A stretch of DNA of 64,000 nt from Frondihabitans sp. PAMC 28766 (GTDB lineage: Bacteria; Actinomycetota; Actinomycetes; Actinomycetales; Microbacteriaceae): assembly GCF_001577365.1 (NCBI RefSeq), contig NZ_CP014513.1, forward strand, positions 1,302,001-1,366,000, in the 5' to 3' direction. Made by a program: the position numbers and the translations under genes. Shown here piece after piece: positions 4,401 to 60,465 of this stretch. The notes beneath the pieces were generated by a model. It saw nothing but the letters and a program-made list of their open reading frames with translations, did no database searches and was not told the DNA's origin. The first letter of the stretch is position 1. Each line of letters opens with the position of its first letter.

Positions 4401-4423
4401 CCCCCGCCCGCCCCGCCCCGCCC

Positions 4424-4499
4424 CCCGTTTTACCTATAGGTAAGCGTTTGCCGCACAGAAATTTCGGTGCGCGAAGGCCGCACCTATAGGTAGAACGGG
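4424..4499. repeat. Intergenic inverted repeat with ACCTATAGGT palindromes
   Basis: Arms CCCGTTTTACCTATAGGT (4424-4441) and ACCTATAGGTAGAACGGG (4482-4499) are reverse complements with one mismatch and enclose 40 bases. Each arm itself contains the perfect 10-bp palindrome ACCTATAGGT. It lies between two convergent genes, so it may end transcription from both sides. The same architecture, with different arms, recurs at 31346, 32989 and 53274. Confidence 0.75.
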
Positions 4500-13227: not shown

Positions 13228-13479
13228 CCCCGGGCCCTGCCCCGTTACTTTCTTCGTAGGCCCAAACGGTGTGAACTGGGAGGGTGTTGGCCTGTCGGGC
13301 CCGGCATGATTGTTGCCCCCAGTCGTTGATGATCCGGGGGTGTTGTCACCGGGCTCGATTGGCGTCGGGTGATCGCTAATAGGGGCTCGACTAGGTGAAG
13401 TTGCCGAGGTCGTTCGTAACGTGGATGCCGAGACTTGACGCCGTGACCAGGCCACTTCGACCGAGTGGATGGAGTAGTG
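13228..13479 (+). ncRNA. Candidate bridge RNA region in the IS110 leader
   Basis: In IS110-group elements the long non-coding left end encodes a structured bridge RNA that guides donor and target recognition. Here the 252-base leader contains no ORF and has several complementary G- and C-rich blocks, for example GCCCCC at ~13315-13320 against GGGGGTG at ~13336-13342 and CGGGCCCGG at ~13298-13306. No fold was computed, so the RNA and its ends are inferred from family knowledge and position. Confidence 0.35.
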
Positions 13480-14700
13480 ATGATCGAGAACTACGACAGC
13501 GTCGACGTGTTCGTCGGTGTCGATGTGGGCAAAGGCGAACACCACGCCGTTGCCCTGAACCGGGCCGGCAAAGTCGTCTTCGACAAGGCCCTGCCCAACG
13601 ATGAAACCAAGATGCGCGCCGTGTTGCAGAAACTCAAAGACCACGGCACGGTCCTCGTGGTCGTCGATCAGCCGGCCACCATCGGTGCGCTACCGATCGC
13701 CGTCGCGCAGTCCGAGGGTGTCCTCGTCGGGTATCTGCCCGGGCTGGCGATGCGACGCATCGCCGACCTCCACGCCGGTGAAGCGAAGACCGACGCCCGC
13801 GATGCAGCGATCATCGCCCAAGCTGCGCGGACGTTGCCGCATGCGTTGCGGTCGATCCAGATGGCCGACGAATCCGTCGCGGAGCTGTCCATGCTCTGCG
13901 GCTTCGACGACGACATCCTGCAGCAGATGACCGCCACCAGCAACCGAATCCGCGGCCTGCTGACCCAGATCCACCCAGCATTGGAGCGGGTTGTCGGGCC
14001 TCACCTGGACCACCCCGCGATGCTCGACCTGCTCCAGCATTACCCGTCCCCGGCCGCGATGAAGTCGGCCGGCACCACCCGCATGTCAACCCGGCTGCTG
14101 AAGCTGGCCCCGCGGATGGGACGCCGTCTGGCCGAGGAAATCACCCAGGCCCTGAGCCAGCAGACCGTCGTGGTGGTCGGCACCAACGCGGCCGCGACTG
14201 TTTTGCCGCGCCTGGCGGAGCAACTCGCGGCGCTGCGACGGCAGCGATCAGAGATCGCCGTGGTGGTGGAGAAGCTGGTGGAGGCGCACCCTCTTTCGCC
14301 CGTCCTGACGAGCATGCCGGGAGTCGGCGCCAGGACCGCAGCCAGGCTCCTCACCGAAGTCGCCGGCAAACACTTCGAGACCTCTGGCCACCTCGCCGCT
14401 TACGCGGGTTTGGCGCCGGTGACTCGGAGATCGGGGTCGTCGATCAGGGGCGAACATCCGTCCCGGCGAGGCAACAAGATCCTCAAACGCACCCTGTTCC
14501 TGTCCGCCTTCGCAGCCCTCCGCGACCCAACTTCACGGACCTACTACGACCGCAAGATCGCCCAAGGCAAACGCCACAACCAAGCCCTCATCGCACTCGC
14601 ACGACGCCGCTGCGACGTCCTTTTCGCAATGCTCCGCGACGGCACCCTCTACGAAACCGATCACGCCCTTGCTGCTTGACAAAACACATAGGGGCACCCC
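13230..14700 (+). mobile_element. IS110-family insertion sequence (ends approximate)
   Basis: One IS110-type transposase gene preceded by about 250 bases of non-coding DNA and followed by only ~20 bases before a C-rich tract. IS110 elements lack clear terminal inverted repeats and target duplications, and none is seen here, so the limits are estimates. The octamer ATAGGGGC occurs both at 13379-13386 and 14688-14695, but I cannot tell whether this marks recombination cores or chance. The element sits in the gap after the mannosidase gene and breaks no recognisable ORF. Confidence 0.7.
13480..14679 (+). CDS. IS110-family transposase
   Basis: 399 residues from ATG 13480 (GGAG at about 13470; in-frame GTG at 13465 is the alternative). 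The N-terminal DEDD/RuvC-like domain starts VDVFVGVDVGKGEHHA, with EAKTDARDAAIIA further on. The C-terminal transposase_20 domain has SMPGVGARTAARLLTEV and AAYAGLAPVTRRSGSS, which contains the conserved Ser region of this family, and RGNKILKRTLFLSAF. Length and domain order are complete, so it may be active. Codon use is somewhat less GC-extreme than its neighbours, as expected for mobile DNA. Confidence 0.93.
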   Translation: MIENYDSVDVFVGVDVGKGEHHAVALNRAGKVVFDKALPNDETKMRAVLQKLKDHGTVLVVVDQPATIGALPIAVAQSEGVLVGYLPGLAMRRIADLHAGEAKTDARDAAIIAQAARTLPHALRSIQMADESVAELSMLCGFDDDILQQMTATSNRIRGLLTQIHPALERVVGPHLDHPAMLDLLQHYPSPAAMKSAGTTRMSTRLLKLAPRMGRRLAEEITQALSQQTVVVVGTNAAATVLPRLAEQLAALRRQRSEIAVVVEKLVEAHPLSPVLTSMPGVGARTAARLLTEVAGKHFETSGHLAAYAGLAPVTRRSGSSIRGEHPSRRGNKILKRTLFLSAFAALRDPTSRTYYDRKIAQGKRHNQALIALARRRCDVLFAMLRDGTLYETDHALAA

Positions 14701-14846
14701 CCCCGCCCCCCGCTCCGCCCCCGCCCCGCCCCGCCCCTCGTCTGAGGGCGCGCGTGACCCCGCCCGCTTCGGTGGACGGGGTCGCGCGCTGACTGTCGTG
14801 CGTCGGGTCGGCCCCGCCCCAGAGAAACGCTTTTGCTTTCACCCCC
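14695..14846. other. C-rich low-complexity tract with a strong hairpin
   Basis: Bases 14695-14740 are nearly pure C/G with runs of C. A stable inverted repeat follows (GCGCGTGACCCCG around 14750-14762 against CGGGGTCGCGCGC at 14777-14789), which may terminate transcription from the insertion sequence. The tract ends with GAAACGCTTTTGCTTTC just before the palindrome array. I see no credible gene here on either strand. Confidence 0.5.
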
Positions 14847-14962
14847 CTCAACTACGTAGTTGAGCGACCCACCGCATTGCTCAACTACGTAGTTGAGCCC
14901 GAAGCCGCGCCGCTCGACTACGGAGTTGAGCGGCCAGACTCGTGCTCGACTACGGAGTTGAG
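14847..14962. repeat. Array 1 of four 18-bp palindromes, ~33-bp period
   Basis: Copies lie at 14847-14864 and 14880-14897 (both perfect CTCAACTACGTAGTTGAG) and at 14913-14930 and 14945-14962 (CTCGACTACGGAGTTGAG, two changes). Starts are spaced 33, 33 and 32 bases, about three helical turns. Intervening sequences are unrelated, except that GCGGCCAGA follows copies 3 and 4. The centre TACGTA is a SnaBI site. The array lies 150 bases upstream of the ArsR-like gene. A second array of the same palindrome is at 59005. Bases 14963-15111 hold no recognised feature. Confidence 0.9.
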
Positions 14963-15111
14963 CGGCCAGAAGAGAGAACGATTCTCCGGGCGGCGCTGCC
15001 GACCAGAGGCCGGCCCTGCGGTCCTCCACAGGCCGACACCGGTGCCGACTTGTCCACAGATCGACGGTGACCAGCGCCGGCGGGGCAGCGGGATCATGCA
15101 TTCTGGCGGGC

Positions 15112-15654
15112 ATGAACAGGCGTCAGGAGTCACCCAGCAAGCGCGCGATGACAGCGTTCCAGCTTCTCAGCGAGCCGGTGCGGCTCTTCCTGCTCGAGAC
15201 ACTGTGCGTGGGCGAGCAGACGTCGGGCGACCTGGCGTCGCTGGTATTCGAGCGTTTCGGCATCGGGTGGTCGGCGACGTCGCGCCACCTCGTCACGCTG
15301 CGCCGATCGGGGCTCGTTCGCGTCATCCCCGACGAGATGCTGCGCTGGTACGTGCTCGAAGACGACTGGCTCGAGGTGATTCAGCGTGAAGTCGACGCCC
15401 TGAAGCGCCCCTGGGAGGAACACGCAGTAATCAGGGGTCTCGGATTCGCCGACCTCGTGCCGTCGCCGTTCGACTGGCCCGAGACGATCTGCGAGACGCG
15501 GGGCGCCGCGGCAGAACTCTGCACGACCAGGCGGCCTGGGGTGTCGGGCGAAGCGCCGAGTCGCCCGATAGCGACGGGGGAGGCGGGCTCAGCTGACGGC
15601 GGTCGACGCGGCCGGCGACACGACGGGCGACGCAGCGGGCGACGCAGCGGGTGA
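15112..15654 (+). CDS. ArsR-like winged-helix transcriptional regulator
   Basis: 180 residues from ATG 15112. Residues ~10-95 form a winged HTH: FQLLSEPVRLFLLETLCVGEQTSGDL, then SATSRHLVTLRRSGLVRVIPDEMLRWYVLEDD, the arrangement of ArsR/SmtB-type repressors. No metal-binding Cys motif is obvious. The C-terminal ~60 residues are low complexity and end GGRRGRRHDGRRSGRRSG; this tail overlaps the convergent HAD gene by 66 bases and is encoded by the reverse of its repeats, so it may be non-functional read-through. Its target might be the palindrome array upstream or the phosphonate genes downstream (inference). Confidence 0.75.
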   Translation: MNRRQESPSKRAMTAFQLLSEPVRLFLLETLCVGEQTSGDLASLVFERFGIGWSATSRHLVTLRRSGLVRVIPDEMLRWYVLEDDWLEVIQREVDALKRPWEEHAVIRGLGFADLVPSPFDWPETICETRGAAAELCTTRRPGVSGEAPSRPIATGEAGSADGGRRGRRHDGRRSGRRSG

Positions 15655-23073: not shown

Positions 23074-23129
23074 CGAGACCTCAGAATCGGCGGCTTTCGA
23101 CCTCGCGAAGCCGCCGATTCTGAGGTCTC
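23074..23129. terminator. Bidirectional hairpin between icd and the ROK kinase
   Basis: Arms GAGACCTCAGAATCGGCGGCTT and its exact reverse complement (22 bp each) are separated by ~12 bases. It lies between two convergent genes, 6 bases after the icd stop and about 16 before the kinase stop. No U-tract follows on either strand, so if it is a terminator it is of the actinobacterial U-less type. The arms differ from the CCCTTACC hairpins elsewhere in the window. Confidence 0.75.
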
Positions 23130-23145
23130 GCGGGTTTCGCCAGGC

Positions 23146-31345: not shown

Positions 31346-31413
31346 CCACCCTTACCTTTTCGGCAGGATCTGGTAGTCCTGCGGGGCAGGGTGTGCCGAA
31401 AAGATAAGGGTGG
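31346..31413. repeat. CCCTTACCTTTTCGGC hairpin, copy 1
   Basis: Arms CCACCCTTACCTTTTCGGCA (31346-31365) and TGCCGAAAAGATAAGGGTGG (~31394-31413) pair over 20 bases with one mismatch around a 28-base loop. Located directly after nagB and before the D-aminoacylase; the right arm reaches into the aminoacylase RBS region. Likely a terminator or mobile intergenic repeat; copies 2 and 3 are at 32989 and 53274. Confidence 0.8.
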
Positions 31414-32988: not shown

Positions 32989-33052
32989 GCCCTTACCTTT
33001 CCGGCAGGTCCTGACCGTCCTCTGGGGAAGTACGTGCCGAAAAGGTAAGGGC
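32989..33052. repeat. CCCTTACCTTTTCGGC hairpin, copy 2
   Basis: Arms GCCCTTACCTTTCCGGCA (32989-33006) and TGCCGAAAAGGTAAGGGC (33035-33052) pair with one mismatch around 28 bases. It lies between convergent genes, but the stop codon of the FGGY kinase (32993-32995) is inside the left arm, so the repeat also encodes the last ~19 residues of that kinase. Confidence 0.85.
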
Positions 33053-53273: not shown

Positions 53274-53350
53274 CCCTTACCTTTTCGGCTCGATCCGACC
53301 GTCCTGCGGGTCAGATCGAGCCGAAAAGGTAAGGCCGAAAAGGTAAGGGG
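53274..53350. repeat. CCCTTACCTTTTCGGC hairpin, copy 3, with duplicated right arm
   Basis: Left arm CCCTTACCTTTTCGGCTCGATC (53274-53295) pairs exactly with GATCGAGCCGAAAAGGTAAGG (53314-53334). A second right-arm copy, CCGAAAAGGTAAGGGG (53335-53350), follows directly, so two alternative hairpins can form. It lies between convergent genes (HAD and the broken efflux pump), 9 bases from the pump stop. Same family as 31346 and 32989. Confidence 0.85.
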
Positions 53351-57077: not shown

Positions 57078-57479
57078 CTACCGGTGCCGCCGGATCCTGA
57101 TGGGCCCCTTGGCGGTCGACGGGTCGACCACCTGCCCCTTCTGCGTGACGTCGACCTCACCGCGGGCGACGAGGCGACGGGCGGCCCGGCGGGCGGGCTC
57201 CATGAGGTCGCGCCAGCCCTCGTCGTCTTTCCCGGAGACGTCGCGGGCCGCGTCCGACGGGCAGATGGTCGACGTCGCCGCACGGGCTTCGAGAAGCGTC
57301 AGGATGCTGTCCTCCAGCTTCCGGTCGACAGGCTGCACCTTGCGGCGGCGGCAGGCGTCGCTGCAGTACGCGACCTCGCTCCAGTTCTTCGCCCACTTGG
57401 CCCGGTATTCGATGCGACGGCCGCACGAGCGACAGGTCTTGTCGTCGTGGTTCTGCACGTTCTTCGAAGCGGCGGGCAT
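57078..57479 (-). CDS. DUF2256 plus DUF3253 zinc-ribbon protein
   Basis: 133 residues from ATG 57479. Residues 15-46 form a zinc ribbon (CRSCGRRIEYRAKWAKNW, then YCSDACRRRK) as in DUF2256. The remainder (LEDSILTLLEARAATSTICPSDAARDV, then WRDLMEPARRAARRLVARGEVDVTQKG) is the winged-helix-like DUF3253. The fusion of the two is common in bacteria; function unknown, possibly nucleic-acid binding. Divergent from the MFS gene at 57523. Confidence 0.85.
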   Translation of the reverse strand: MPAASKNVQNHDDKTCRSCGRRIEYRAKWAKNWSEVAYCSDACRRRKVQPVDRKLEDSILTLLEARAATSTICPSDAARDVSGKDDEGWRDLMEPARRAARRLVARGEVDVTQKGQVVDPSTAKGPIRIRRHR

Positions 57480-57522
57480 GTCGCCAGTCGTACTCCACCG
57501 CACCTGGTCGATAGGCTTGAAC

Positions 57523-58872
57523 GTGCCCTCACCGCTGTCGACGTCGCCCGCCGCCCGCTTTCCGTGGGGCGGCCTGATCGCCCTCGCCGTGGCCTCCTTC
57601 TTCTCGATCTCGGGCGAGATGCTGCCGACCGGCCTGCTGCCCGAGATGGGCGCCGATCTGCACGTCAGCGAGACGTCGGTGGGCCTTCTGGTGTCGGTGT
57701 TCGCGTTCACCGTGGTCTTCACGTCGACGATCCTGACGCATCTCCTGTCGCGTATCCCGCGGCACCGCCTCCTCGTCGGGCTCATCATCGTCATCGCGAT
57801 CGGCGCGGCAGGGACGGCTCTCGCGCCGACCTTCGGGCTGCTCGTCGTGGCCCGCATCCTCGGCGGCCTCGCGCACGGGGTGTTCTGGGCGATCACGGGG
57901 GCGTACGCGGCTCACCTCGTGCCGCGCGAGCAGGTCGGGCGCGCGCTCGCCGTCTCCTCGAGCGGAGGCACGCTCGCGTTCGTGCTCGGTGTGCCGCTCG
58001 GCACCGCGCTCGGGCAGGCGGTGGGGTGGCGCTGGGCTTTCGGCATCCTGGCGATCCTGATGGTGGGCGGGGCCCTCTTGGTCTGGCGGCTCCTGCCCGA
58101 CGTGGGGTCGGGGGCGCAGGATGCCGAGACCCTCCGTCGCGAGGCCAGCGACGCGGCCACGGGTGCGACGCCGGTCGGCCCCGGTGCTCTGGCGACCGGG
58201 TCGATCCCGATCATCGGCGACTCGTCGGCGCGGGAGGACGCCCGCCTCCGCGCCCTGCCCGACCCCAGCAAGCTCGGTGTCGTCTTCAGCTGCGTCGTGA
58301 CCGGCATCTTCATGATCGGCCACTACTCGCTCTACACGTACGTGGCGCCGTTCCTCACCCGCACGTCAGGGCTGTCGGACGGGCAGCTGAGCCTTGCGCT
58401 CTTCGCCTACGGCATCGCGGGCGCAGTCGGTCTGCTGCTCGTCGGCTGGGCGCTCGGGCGGCGCACCGGCTTGACTATCCCGCTGTTCATGGCGCTGACG
58501 GCGCTGACCGTGCTCGGGCTGCTCGCTCTCGAAGGTCGACCCGCGCCCTCGTTCGTCGTGTTCGTGGTGCTCGGCATCACGTTCGGGTCGCTGCCGCCGC
58601 TGCTGCAGATCCGACTGCTCGAGCGGGCGCCCGCCCGCATCCGCGACCTCGCGAACTCGTTCTACACGTCGTCGTTCAACGCCGGCATCGGCGCGGGCGC
58701 CCTCGTCGGTGGCCTCGTGCTGGCTGGCGCCGGGCTCGGCGCGCTGCCCGTCCTGTACGCCGTCGTCGCCGCGGTCATGTTCGTCATCACGGTGGTCTCC
58801 GACCGAGTGCTCGCACGCCGCCGCCCGCCCCGGGCTGCTGCCGCCGGGGCAGCTCGGCGCGTGCCGCGGTAG
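57523..58872 (+). CDS. DHA1-family (Cmx/AraJ-like) MFS efflux transporter
   Basis: 449 residues from GTG 57523 (no clear RBS; TTG 57517 is next to it). Twelve membrane segments: first WGGLIALAVASFFSISGEM, then LPTGLLPEMGADLHVSETSVG, the family opening, GLAHGVFWAITGAYAAHL and GVPLGTALGQAVGWRWAFG, the antiporter motif C region. A ~65-residue cytoplasmic loop at about 205-255 links the halves. Likely exports drugs or sugars. The basic C-terminal tail (RRRPPRAAAAG) is normal for the group. Confidence 0.87.
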   Translation: MPSPLSTSPAARFPWGGLIALAVASFFSISGEMLPTGLLPEMGADLHVSETSVGLLVSVFAFTVVFTSTILTHLLSRIPRHRLLVGLIIVIAIGAAGTALAPTFGLLVVARILGGLAHGVFWAITGAYAAHLVPREQVGRALAVSSSGGTLAFVLGVPLGTALGQAVGWRWAFGILAILMVGGALLVWRLLPDVGSGAQDAETLRREASDAATGATPVGPGALATGSIPIIGDSSAREDARLRALPDPSKLGVVFSCVVTGIFMIGHYSLYTYVAPFLTRTSGLSDGQLSLALFAYGIAGAVGLLLVGWALGRRTGLTIPLFMALTALTVLGLLALEGRPAPSFVVFVVLGITFGSLPPLLQIRLLERAPARIRDLANSFYTSSFNAGIGAGALVGGLVLAGAGLGALPVLYAVVAAVMFVITVVSDRVLARRRPPRAAAAGAARRVPR

Positions 58873-59004
58873 GCCTGCCCTGCCTGGCCTTGCCCGTCGC
58901 GTGCTGCGTGCTGCGTGCTGCGTGCTCGCGCGCCGCCGGCCGCCGCGTTGCGTCGCTGGCGCCGGCCCGTAGCCCAGCCGAGAAGTGCTTTCCCTTTTGG
59001 GCCC

Positions 59005-59192
59005 CTCAACTACGTAGTCGAGCGCCTCCGGTGTGCCGGCCCTCGTGCTCAACTACGTAGTGGAGCGTGCCCGGCCTGCGCCCCTCCGCGCTCAACTCCG
59101 TAGTGGAGCGCCTCCGGTGTACTGGCTTTCATGCTCAACTACGTAGTCGAGCGGCACGTTGGCGGGGCCTTGCGCTCAACTACGTAGTCGAG
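59005..59192. repeat. Array 2 of five 18-bp palindromes, 43-bp period
   Basis: Copies at 59005, 59048, 59091, 59134 and 59175 (18 bp each; spacing 43, 43, 43, 41). Left halves are CTCAACTAC except CTCAACTCC in copy 3; right halves are GTAGTCGAG or GTAGTGGAG. GCGCCTCCGGTGT follows copies 1 and 3, so part of the array arose by duplication. GTGCTTTCCCTTTTGGG lies just upstream and AAAAAGCGATTCGCTTTT just downstream; similar short AT-rich motifs flank array 1. The stretch 58873-59004 before it holds only short GCGTGCTGCGT repeats and no gene. Confidence 0.92.
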
Positions 59193-59207
59193 CGACCTAA
59201 AACAAAA

Positions 59208-59440
59208 AGCGATTCGCTTTTGGAGCCGAGCCGAGCCGAGGCGGGCCGCGCCGACCGGACGCCGCGCCGAACGGACGCCGCGCCGAACGGACGCCGAGCC
59301 GACGGGACGCCGAGCCGAGCCAGCCGCACGCCGACCCGAGCCGAGCCGGGCCAGCCGACGCGAGCCGGGCCGGGCCAGCCGACCCGAGCCGACCCGAGCC
59401 AACCGGACGCCGCGCCGCAGCCGCAGATTCATGCGCGGCA
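59208..59440. repeat. GCCGA-rich low-complexity repeat
   Basis: After AAAAAGCGATTCGCTTTTGG (a small dyad) the sequence to about 59440 is built from GCCGA, GCCGC and GGACGCC units, with three near-identical CGCCGAACGGACGCC-type repeats. ORFs through it (RTRRTDAAPNG, ADPSQP and similar) are products of the repeat rather than credible proteins. It separates the palindrome array from the DUF2017 gene. Confidence 0.75.
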
Positions 59441-59464
59441 CCGCCAACGCGACATGAACCGCAG

Positions 59465-59929
59465 CTAGCGGTCGATGGCGCGGACCAGCGCCTCCTGCAC
59501 GTACCCGAGCCAGTCGTAGATGTCGCGCATGAGCAGCACCTGCGGGTCGGTCGAGGGCCGGAAGCCCTCGCCCGTGACGGCGAGGCGCGACCCGAGCGTC
59601 AGCCGGATATCAGTCAGCGAGCGCAACCAGGCCTGCTCGGCCTCGGGGGTCAGCACCGCCTTGCGATCCTGCCCCAGCGTCGTGATGATCGTCTCGGCGT
59701 TGCGGACCTTGGCCTCGGTGAGGTCGTCGGCCGTGAGGCGCCGGAACTCGGCGGCGGCCTCGTCGTCGCCGCTGTACGCGTCGGGCAAAAGGCGCGAGAG
59801 CGCAGGATCCTTCTGGTCACCGCCCTGCAGCATGTCGACCAATTGTCTCGCCAGATCGCCGATGAGGGTGCGCTCGTGCTCGGCGAGACCGAGGTGCACG
59901 CCGTTGCGCTTCCGCTGGAAGGGGAGCAT
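59465..59929 (-). CDS. DUF2017 family protein
   Basis: 154 residues from ATG 59929 (MLPFQRKRNGVHLGLAEHER). All-helical, with LIGDLARQLVDMLQG, DPALSRLLPDAY, EFRRLTADDLTEAKVRNAETI and the ending DWLGYVQEALVRAI, the DUF2017 pattern. In actinobacteria this gene habitually follows clpS, as it does here (48 bases after), which hints at a role near the Clp system, but no biochemical function is known to me. Confidence 0.88.
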   Translation of the reverse strand: MLPFQRKRNGVHLGLAEHERTLIGDLARQLVDMLQGGDQKDPALSRLLPDAYSGDDEAAAEFRRLTADDLTEAKVRNAETIITTLGQDRKAVLTPEAEQAWLRSLTDIRLTLGSRLAVTGEGFRPSTDPQVLLMRDIYDWLGYVQEALVRAIDR

Positions 59930-60320: not shown

Positions 60321-60324
60321 TCGA

Positions 60325-60402
60325 CGGGTCGCGACTGGCGTTCGGGTGGTCAACCACCGGGGAGCGACTCACACGGTTGGTGGCCGTACGCCTGGGCCAT
60401 CT
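60325..60402 (+). promoter_or_regulatory. ZTP/ZMP riboswitch (pfl motif) upstream of glyA
   Basis: The leader has the conserved pfl elements in order: GGGTCGCGACTGGCG (P1 5' side with the CUGGCG-like bulge), a hairpin GGTGGTCAACCACC, GGGGAGCGAC (P1 3' side) and, after a short linker, the highly conserved CGCCTGGGC block (60389-60397) of the second stem-loop. Pfl-motif RNAs are known to precede glyA, folD and purine genes and to turn them on when ZMP/ZTP signals folate shortage. About 63 bases separate it from the glyA start; CGCTTCGCGC there may be part of the expression platform. Confidence 0.88.
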
Positions 60403-60465
60403 CGTACCAGCAAACATCCGCGCTTCGCGCTGAGGTGCCGCAGTCCGTGTAAAAGGAGCAGCCCC

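Follow-up and report, generated by a model that had tools for sequence, protein, structure and literature searches.

The window analyzed here is a 64,000-nt stretch of the Frondihabitans sp. PAMC 28766 genome (G000; NZ_CP014513.1, positions 1,302,001 to 1,366,000), and coordinates are those of the window unless they carry the contig label C1 or belong to another genome. Between the convergent genes for an MFS transporter and a DUF2017 protein, whose stop codons (58872 and 59465) are 592 bp apart, lie five 18-bp palindromes, hereafter called cores, whose starts are separated by 43, 43, 43, and 41 bp (Table 1). These spacings and a gene-free gap of about 590 bases had been reported in a first-pass annotation, and both are confirmed. 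When up to three mismatches are allowed, the window contains 18 strand-matches to the core, 10 in this array and 8 in a second array (14847 to 14962) that the annotation missed, compared with a mean of 0.01 and a maximum of 1 over 100 shuffles, placing the array far beyond chance.

The five copies were originally assigned to one consensus, which is accurate for copies 1, 4, and 5 but not for copies 2 and 3, which differ by 1 and 2 bases. The spacers, described as mostly unrelated, in fact belong to a degenerate tandem repeat with a 43-bp unit (73% match); 20 of 25 positions coincide between spacers 1 and 3. Mean identity in this array is 94% between cores and 55% between spacers. The CGCTTTT-like motifs noted at both ends of the array are present, and they belong to arms that are inverted copies of one another. 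Rfam yielded no match up to an E value of 1 at positions 58600 to 59600. Across the window at the gathering score, the only Rfam match is a ZMP/ZTP riboswitch at 60321 to 60404 (RF01750, 59.5 bits), upstream of a presumed glyA gene.

The second array contains four cores with a pitch of 33, 33, and 32 bp and is situated between an IS110 element and a gene for an HTH_5 regulator, the nearest homologue of which (63% identity) occurs in a congener (G087), likewise beside a core. The IS110 element (about 1,465 bp, 13240 to 14704) separates the array from the stop codon of an ORF that we take to be an alpha-mannosidase gene, and it starts about 12 bp past that codon. Another IS110 copy, 99.9% identical, is found at C1:1144111. 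The adjacent element is a separate insertion, G087 having a core at this site without IS110.

Table 1. Positions of the features of both arrays in the window, and of all places with cores on the PAMC 28766 contig
Feature	Position	Strand	Description
First element left arm	58980..59004	+	GAGAAGTGCTTTCCCTTTTGGGCCC; similar motif about equally far left of the first core in 9 of 9 clusters (by eye)
First array core 1	59005..59022	.	CTCAACTACGTAGTCGAG
First array core 2	59048..59065	.	CTCAACTACGTAGTGGAG
First array core 3	59091..59108	.	CTCAACTCCGTAGTGGAG
First array core 4	59134..59151	.	CTCAACTACGTAGTCGAG
First array core 5	59175..59192	.	CTCAACTACGTAGTCGAG
First element right arm	59193..59223	-	Inverted copy of left arm, 15 of 24 positions alike
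Degenerate 43-bp tandem repeat	59005..59194	.	4.5 copies, 73% match (Tandem Repeats Finder)
MFS transporter gene	57478..58872	+	Stop 132 bp ahead of first array
DUF2017 gene	59465..59929	-	Convergent; gene end 272 bp beyond last core
Second element left arm	14821..14846	+	
Second array core 1	14847..14864	.	CTCAACTACGTAGTTGAG
Second array core 2	14880..14897	.	CTCAACTACGTAGTTGAG
Second array core 3	14913..14930	.	CTCGACTACGGAGTTGAG
Second array core 4	14945..14962	.	CTCGACTACGGAGTTGAG
Second element right arm	14963..14988	-	Weak, 10 of 24 positions
HTH_5 (ArsR-type) regulator gene	15112..15654	+	Downstream of second array
Place in PAMC 28766	C1:1089473		2 cores
Place in PAMC 28766	C1:1316847		4 cores (second array)
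Place in PAMC 28766	C1:1361005		5 cores (first array)
Place in PAMC 28766	C1:2379291		1 core
Place in PAMC 28766	C1:2394714		2 cores
Place in PAMC 28766	C1:3323298		1 core
Place in PAMC 28766	C1:3344872 with 3345046		1 and 6 cores
Place in PAMC 28766	C1:3393675		1 core

A palindrome family in two congeneric genomes

Throughout the PAMC 28766 genome, 23 cores (variable positions allowed) are distributed over 8 places in nine clusters of 1, 2, 4, 5, or 6 cores, and the main pitches of the arrays are 33, 43, 51, or 55 bp. A left arm approximating GAGAAACGCTTTTGCTTTGGGCCC precedes the first core of all nine clusters, as judged by eye. After the last core, the five multicore clusters carry an inverted copy of the arm (10 to 17 of 24 positions alike), and the four single-core clusters have no clear right arm (6 to 12 of 24); in this genome the likeness of an arm to its own partner is not significant (permutation P = 0.15). 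At all 8 places the left arm and the upstream gene occupy the same contig strand, perhaps by chance.

Cores of the three longest arrays are on average 93 to 95% identical, and their spacers are 44%, 55%, and 89% identical. A 33-bp tandem repeat of recent origin, its spacers almost the same throughout, makes up the cluster at 3345046, and the left arm and gene-end sequence ahead of this cluster match those ahead of 3344872 at 54 of 60 positions, which points to duplication as the origin of this pair. Core position 8 is an A in 27 of 29 copies and position 11 a T in 14 of 29, an asymmetry that would suit strand-specific reading; counted by locus (8 versus 2) it is not significant, and it provides a weak hint.

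The core is confined to two genomes of the genus, PAMC 28766 and G087 (2 of 7 with one mismatch allowed), and the same two are the only ones among 398 family genomes with an exact core. By DUF2017 identity, G087 is the closest relative of PAMC 28766 (71%, the next being 64%). The first-pass annotation had proposed a search of the genome and its relatives for the consensus: the core is there, at 8 places and in one congener, but the array pattern is matched in PAMC 28766 alone (1 of 398 family genomes) and in no stretch of the genome contigs. Those contigs hold 10 stretches with a single core, from unrelated taxa and taken as chance in a scan that may leave out near relatives. At least 120 stretches of viral contigs contain a core, with one site each among the 80 matches listed, and are also taken as chance. 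Similarity searches gave one match in plasmid DNA (E = 0.8) and none in phage DNA.

The G087 cores are six in number and all single, and each forms the center of a 66-bp inverted repeat in which the two arms match at 14 to 23 of 24 positions, with the element consensus GGTGTTGC...CTTTTTTCCCTC-core-GAGGGAAAAAAG...GCAACACC; a one-mismatch core within an ORF at 1549991 was left out of the counts. Arms match their own partners at an average of 17.8 of 24 positions as opposed to 16.1 for the arms of other elements (permutation P = 0.0046). In the alignment of these elements 86.6% of cells pair, and 7 of 500 shuffles attained its covariation score; the number of pairs with both sides altered showed no excess over shuffles (194 of 500). 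These are signs that the arms may co-vary within elements. The most regular element (L198) has a predicted fold of -63.5 kcal/mol (z = -12.4), and another has a z of -9.4. A covariance model built from all six found matches in 2 of 398 family genomes, the PAMC 28766 arrays being out of its reach, and its match in G011 (E = 7e-4) proved to be a hairpin that lacks the core.

To define shared places, 10 kb on each side were compared for genes of at least 65% identity. One of the six G087 places is in the same gap as in PAMC 28766, one is in the same neighborhood, and four have no shared gene. The same gap is that between the presumed alpha-mannosidase gene (80% identical) and the HTH_5 regulator gene, and the shared neighborhood pairs a galactokinase/FolD gap in G087 with the MFS/DUF2017 gap in PAMC 28766, about 3.5 kb apart. 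An 81-amino-acid match between the neighbors of C1:3393675 and those of position 583265 in G087 was absent from the wider 10-kb comparison. Element positions thus seem to turn over, with some inheritance between the two genomes.

Placement at gene ends

All 14 places in the two genomes are behind the 3' end of a gene, 7 in convergent, 7 in tandem, and none in divergent gaps. Neighbors were assigned by ORFs, Pfam matches, and homology; the automatic gene caller errs in GC-rich DNA and was overridden at five loci (L187, L194, L195, L196, and L198), two of which (L195 and L198) it had rendered divergent until corrected by Pfam and homology. The FolD and mannosidase names and the minus-strand neighbor at 3695438 in G087 come from ORFs read without a Pfam scan. 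Set against 52 divergent gaps among 212 in the background, the lack of divergent places is indicative (P of about 0.02), the background consisting of uncorrected calls and not being like for like. The distance from the upstream stop codon to the first core is 41 to 285 bp in 13 of 14 loci, and the core at 3323298 itself provides the stop codon of a glycerate kinase frame.

From sites matching the parS consensus, oriC is presumably near 0.861 Mb in PAMC 28766 and 3.093 Mb in G087. Elements occur on both sides of oriC in G087; in PAMC 28766 they extend from 1.09 to 3.39 Mb, and span both replichores only if the terminus is assumed to be opposite oriC. Their spread along the chromosome led us to reject oriC-linked sites; the lack of gathering at oriC and the absence of divergent placement speak against the phased cooperative array proposed in the first-pass annotation.

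The sampled genomes harbor other palindrome families. An inverted-repeat census of 400 kb each of PAMC 28766 and three congeners (G087, G285, and G150), allowing loops no longer than 10 and requiring a perfect inner stem, settings that miss some palindromes including the PAMC 28766 arrays, found inverted repeats with another copy in the same 400 kb in 12 of 29, 8 of 36, 4 of 23, and 8 of 36 cases, respectively. Two commoner families in PAMC 28766, with 10 and 11 copies in 400 kb, have no divergent placement among their 21 copies (automatic calls), and 19 of the 21 are centered 35 to 70 bp from a stop codon, mostly closer than the cores of the array family. The array family represents, at low copy number, a feature that is general in the genomes sampled.

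The more numerous of the commoner families (CCCTTACCTTTTCGGC...GCCGAAAAGGTAAGGG, about 62 bp, 11 copies) has window copies at 53274 to 53334, 31349 to 31410, and 32990 to 33051, shortly past stop codons. The other (10 copies), in which ACCTATAGGT palindromes lie on the outside and AGAAATTTCT in the center, has one at 4421 to 4499. A 57-bp near-perfect inverted repeat is located at 23074 to 23130. G087 has a four-copy family of its own in 400 kb (CGCGACAAAACGCGACA...TGTCGCGTTTTGTCGCG; 2647680, 2756141, 2808682, and 2919922).

Probable origin and proposed recognition of the arrays

The first array is probably a locally expanded copy of a low-copy, interspersed, untagged REP-like palindrome family that resides at gene ends. 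This reading draws on features visible in the sequence: the repeat family and its arms, the gene-end placement, the signs of co-variation in G087, the cores kept as the spacers of two arrays diverge, and the lack of T-runs described below. The basic element would be, as in G087, a 66-bp inverted repeat centered on CTCAACTACGNAGTTGAG behind a stop codon, which, if transcription passes through it, would be part of the mRNA 3' end and fold as one long hairpin. Five of the nine PAMC 28766 clusters hold 2 to 6 cores between inverted arms and, being bounded by related arms, look like expansions of the center of such an element; the longer ones, at least, arose through tandem duplication in this reading, a process that explains the even pitch of the first array. 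Because the exact core is found in both species amid differing arms and mostly different sites, a trans-acting factor probably recognizes it, presumably folded as a hairpin of single-stranded DNA or of RNA, and would either spread the element or bind the ends of mRNAs. For the host, the most likely consequence would be a hairpin at mRNA 3' ends, and the element may owe its existence to spread as a mobile repeat.

Some observations count against this interpretation or fit others as well. Eight places are few for a REP family, and the 2 of 6 G087 places that share PAMC 28766 neighborhoods also fit vertical inheritance of fixed sites. Further points against it are the nonsignificant likeness of partner arms in PAMC 28766, the ordinary number of doubly changed pairs in G087, the indistinct right arms of the single-core clusters in PAMC 28766, the distances to stop codons, which mostly exceed those of the commoner families, and the uncorrected gap background. 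No target-site duplication was recognized by eye at the loci. As for a dispersal enzyme, Y1_Tnp (PF01797) was detected in none of the 7 genus genomes, with control detection in 5 of 14 known genomes. Downstream of the core at C1:3393675, at a distance of about 480 bp, is a reverse transcriptase gene (C1:3394169 to 3395665; L193, 4170 to 5669) with RT_other and RT_outgroup as its best PADLOC models. It occurs in 6 of 7 genus genomes and was rejected as the dispersal enzyme, being present in five coreless congeners and absent from core-bearing G087. More speculatively, and on balance doubtful, a system unrelated to RAYT may read or spread several coexisting families of gene-end hairpins, the CTCAACTACGNAGTTGAG core being the recognition hairpin of one and the strings of cores at mRNA ends serving as multisite platforms for a putative RNA- or single-strand-binding protein.

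An unlikely alternative is that the cores are operators or chromosome-organizing sites, each 18-bp palindrome being bound by a dimeric protein, perhaps of the HTH_5 (ArsR) type, and cooperatively so in arrays. The part of this idea already put forward in the first-pass annotation that probably holds is sequence-specific recognition of the core, since one and the same 18-mer is found at 8 places in PAMC 28766 and at 6 in G087 among differing arms, spacers, and, for the most part, locations, and since cores are kept relative to the spacers in the three longest arrays. Some places are in conserved neighborhoods, and at the shared gap the regulator gene starts 150 to 170 bp downstream of the core in both species; its product is the best candidate binder. 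The close HTH_5 homologue in G087 has no counterpart above 41% identity, if any, in the other five congeners, but DUF2017 identity also makes G087 the nearest relative, so that co-occurrence of gene and core may reflect kinship, and five HTH_5 homologues in another genus (39 to 50% identity) are without such a palindrome within about 1.5 kb. The long, co-varying arms in G087 would be unexpected for a simple operator, and placement in divergent gaps is lacking. What lacks support in the earlier proposal is helical phasing with cooperation: pitches vary between arrays, and single cores make up four of the nine PAMC 28766 clusters and all six G087 sites. With one spacing per array (n = 4), phase on a 10.5-bp turn is not significant (Rayleigh P of about 0.17), whereas all nine spacings together give a P of about 0.004, valid only if tandem-duplicated spacings were independent. 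Protein binding of the cores is nonetheless compatible with the data.

Inverted arms enclosing a variable middle, together with places that mostly differ between the two genomes, would also suit a MITE, a nonautonomous DNA transposon that has long inverted repeats at its termini and is mobilized by an insertion-sequence transposase; this is improbable, given that the loci read contain no transposase gene between two such arms, that target duplications were not recognized, and that the neighboring IS110 is separate. Bidirectional intrinsic termination, which we hold to be very improbable, would agree with the gene-end placement, half of it convergent, and with strong predicted hairpins on both strands. 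However, at none of the 14 loci is the outermost core followed by a T-run, whichever strand is read (at most 3 T in 12 bases), arguing against canonical terminators, and the A-runs beyond the outermost cores in G087 have the opposite polarity. At the first array a single terminator-like match was obtained against 0.3 expected, and it corresponds to a distinct small minus-strand hairpin within the right arm. Nor does termination need a sequence-specific core. Finally, the low-complexity repeats that adjoin the first array at 59223 to 59423 and the recent tandem repeat at 3345046 would be in keeping with a plain degenerate tandem repeat in intergenic DNA that has no role, but this is the least credible explanation, and hardly to be reconciled with spacers that drop to 44% and 55% in two arrays while cores stay at 93 to 95%, or with recurrence of the core in another species.

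If the preferred reading is correct, the locus offers an example of a REP-like palindrome grown into a regular array resembling an operator cluster. It points to genomes that possess several palindrome families yet no Y1/RAYT transposase, the usual REP-spreading enzyme, and identifying what recognizes an 18-bp core that is kept exactly across two species, as arms and most places differ, would test how repeats of this kind spread.

Relation to known repeats and site arrays

Arrays of parS, iteron, and operator sites consist of palindromic or repeated sites at a regular pitch, whereas the cores described here are not gathered at oriC, are single in G087, and sit at gene ends. Literature searches by the letters of the core and by topic found no description of this palindrome family, which would make it new as far as those searches reach. 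The statement in the first-pass annotation that no element of this form had been described was, however, too strong: according to PMC3733652, REPs occupy mostly convergent or tandem gaps near gene 3' ends as singles, dimers, or clusters, some are nested in longer palindromes, and some supply a stop codon.

With REPs (GTAG and CGTC superfamilies, and BIMEs), as characterized there, the family shares its nature as short, dispersed intergenic palindromes, its gene-end placement, its clusters, and its supply of a stop codon. Apart from one core that overlaps a gene end, the 23 cores at 8 places in PAMC 28766 and the 6 in G087 are dispersed and extragenic. Unlike tagged REPs, the family has no terminal GTAG or CGTC tag, no Y1/RAYT transposase found in the genus, and only 8 places, and its whole element in G087 is a 66-bp inverted repeat. 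A reading of the 29 cores, extended by 2 leading and 3 trailing bases, showed GTAG only inside the core and no common terminal tag. REPINs, which PMC3116915 presents as two REPs with a spacer that form a hairpin, are dispersed, are tied to RAYT genes, and are argued to be nonautonomous mobile DNA, resemble the family in inverted hairpin structure and dispersal; they differ in that here arms enclose one palindrome at the center, and the genus yielded no RAYT.

The best fit is to untagged REP-like repeats, the class in which we place the family because it has no terminal tag and the genus genomes no Y1 transposase. The same account (PMC3733652) mentions such repeats for M. tuberculosis, D. radiodurans, Bordetella, Brucella, and cyanobacteria and describes untagged families as still to be explored. 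Both have REP-like placement and no conserved terminal tag; set beside those families by description, not by sequence, the present one is distinguished by a core that is expanded into arrays.
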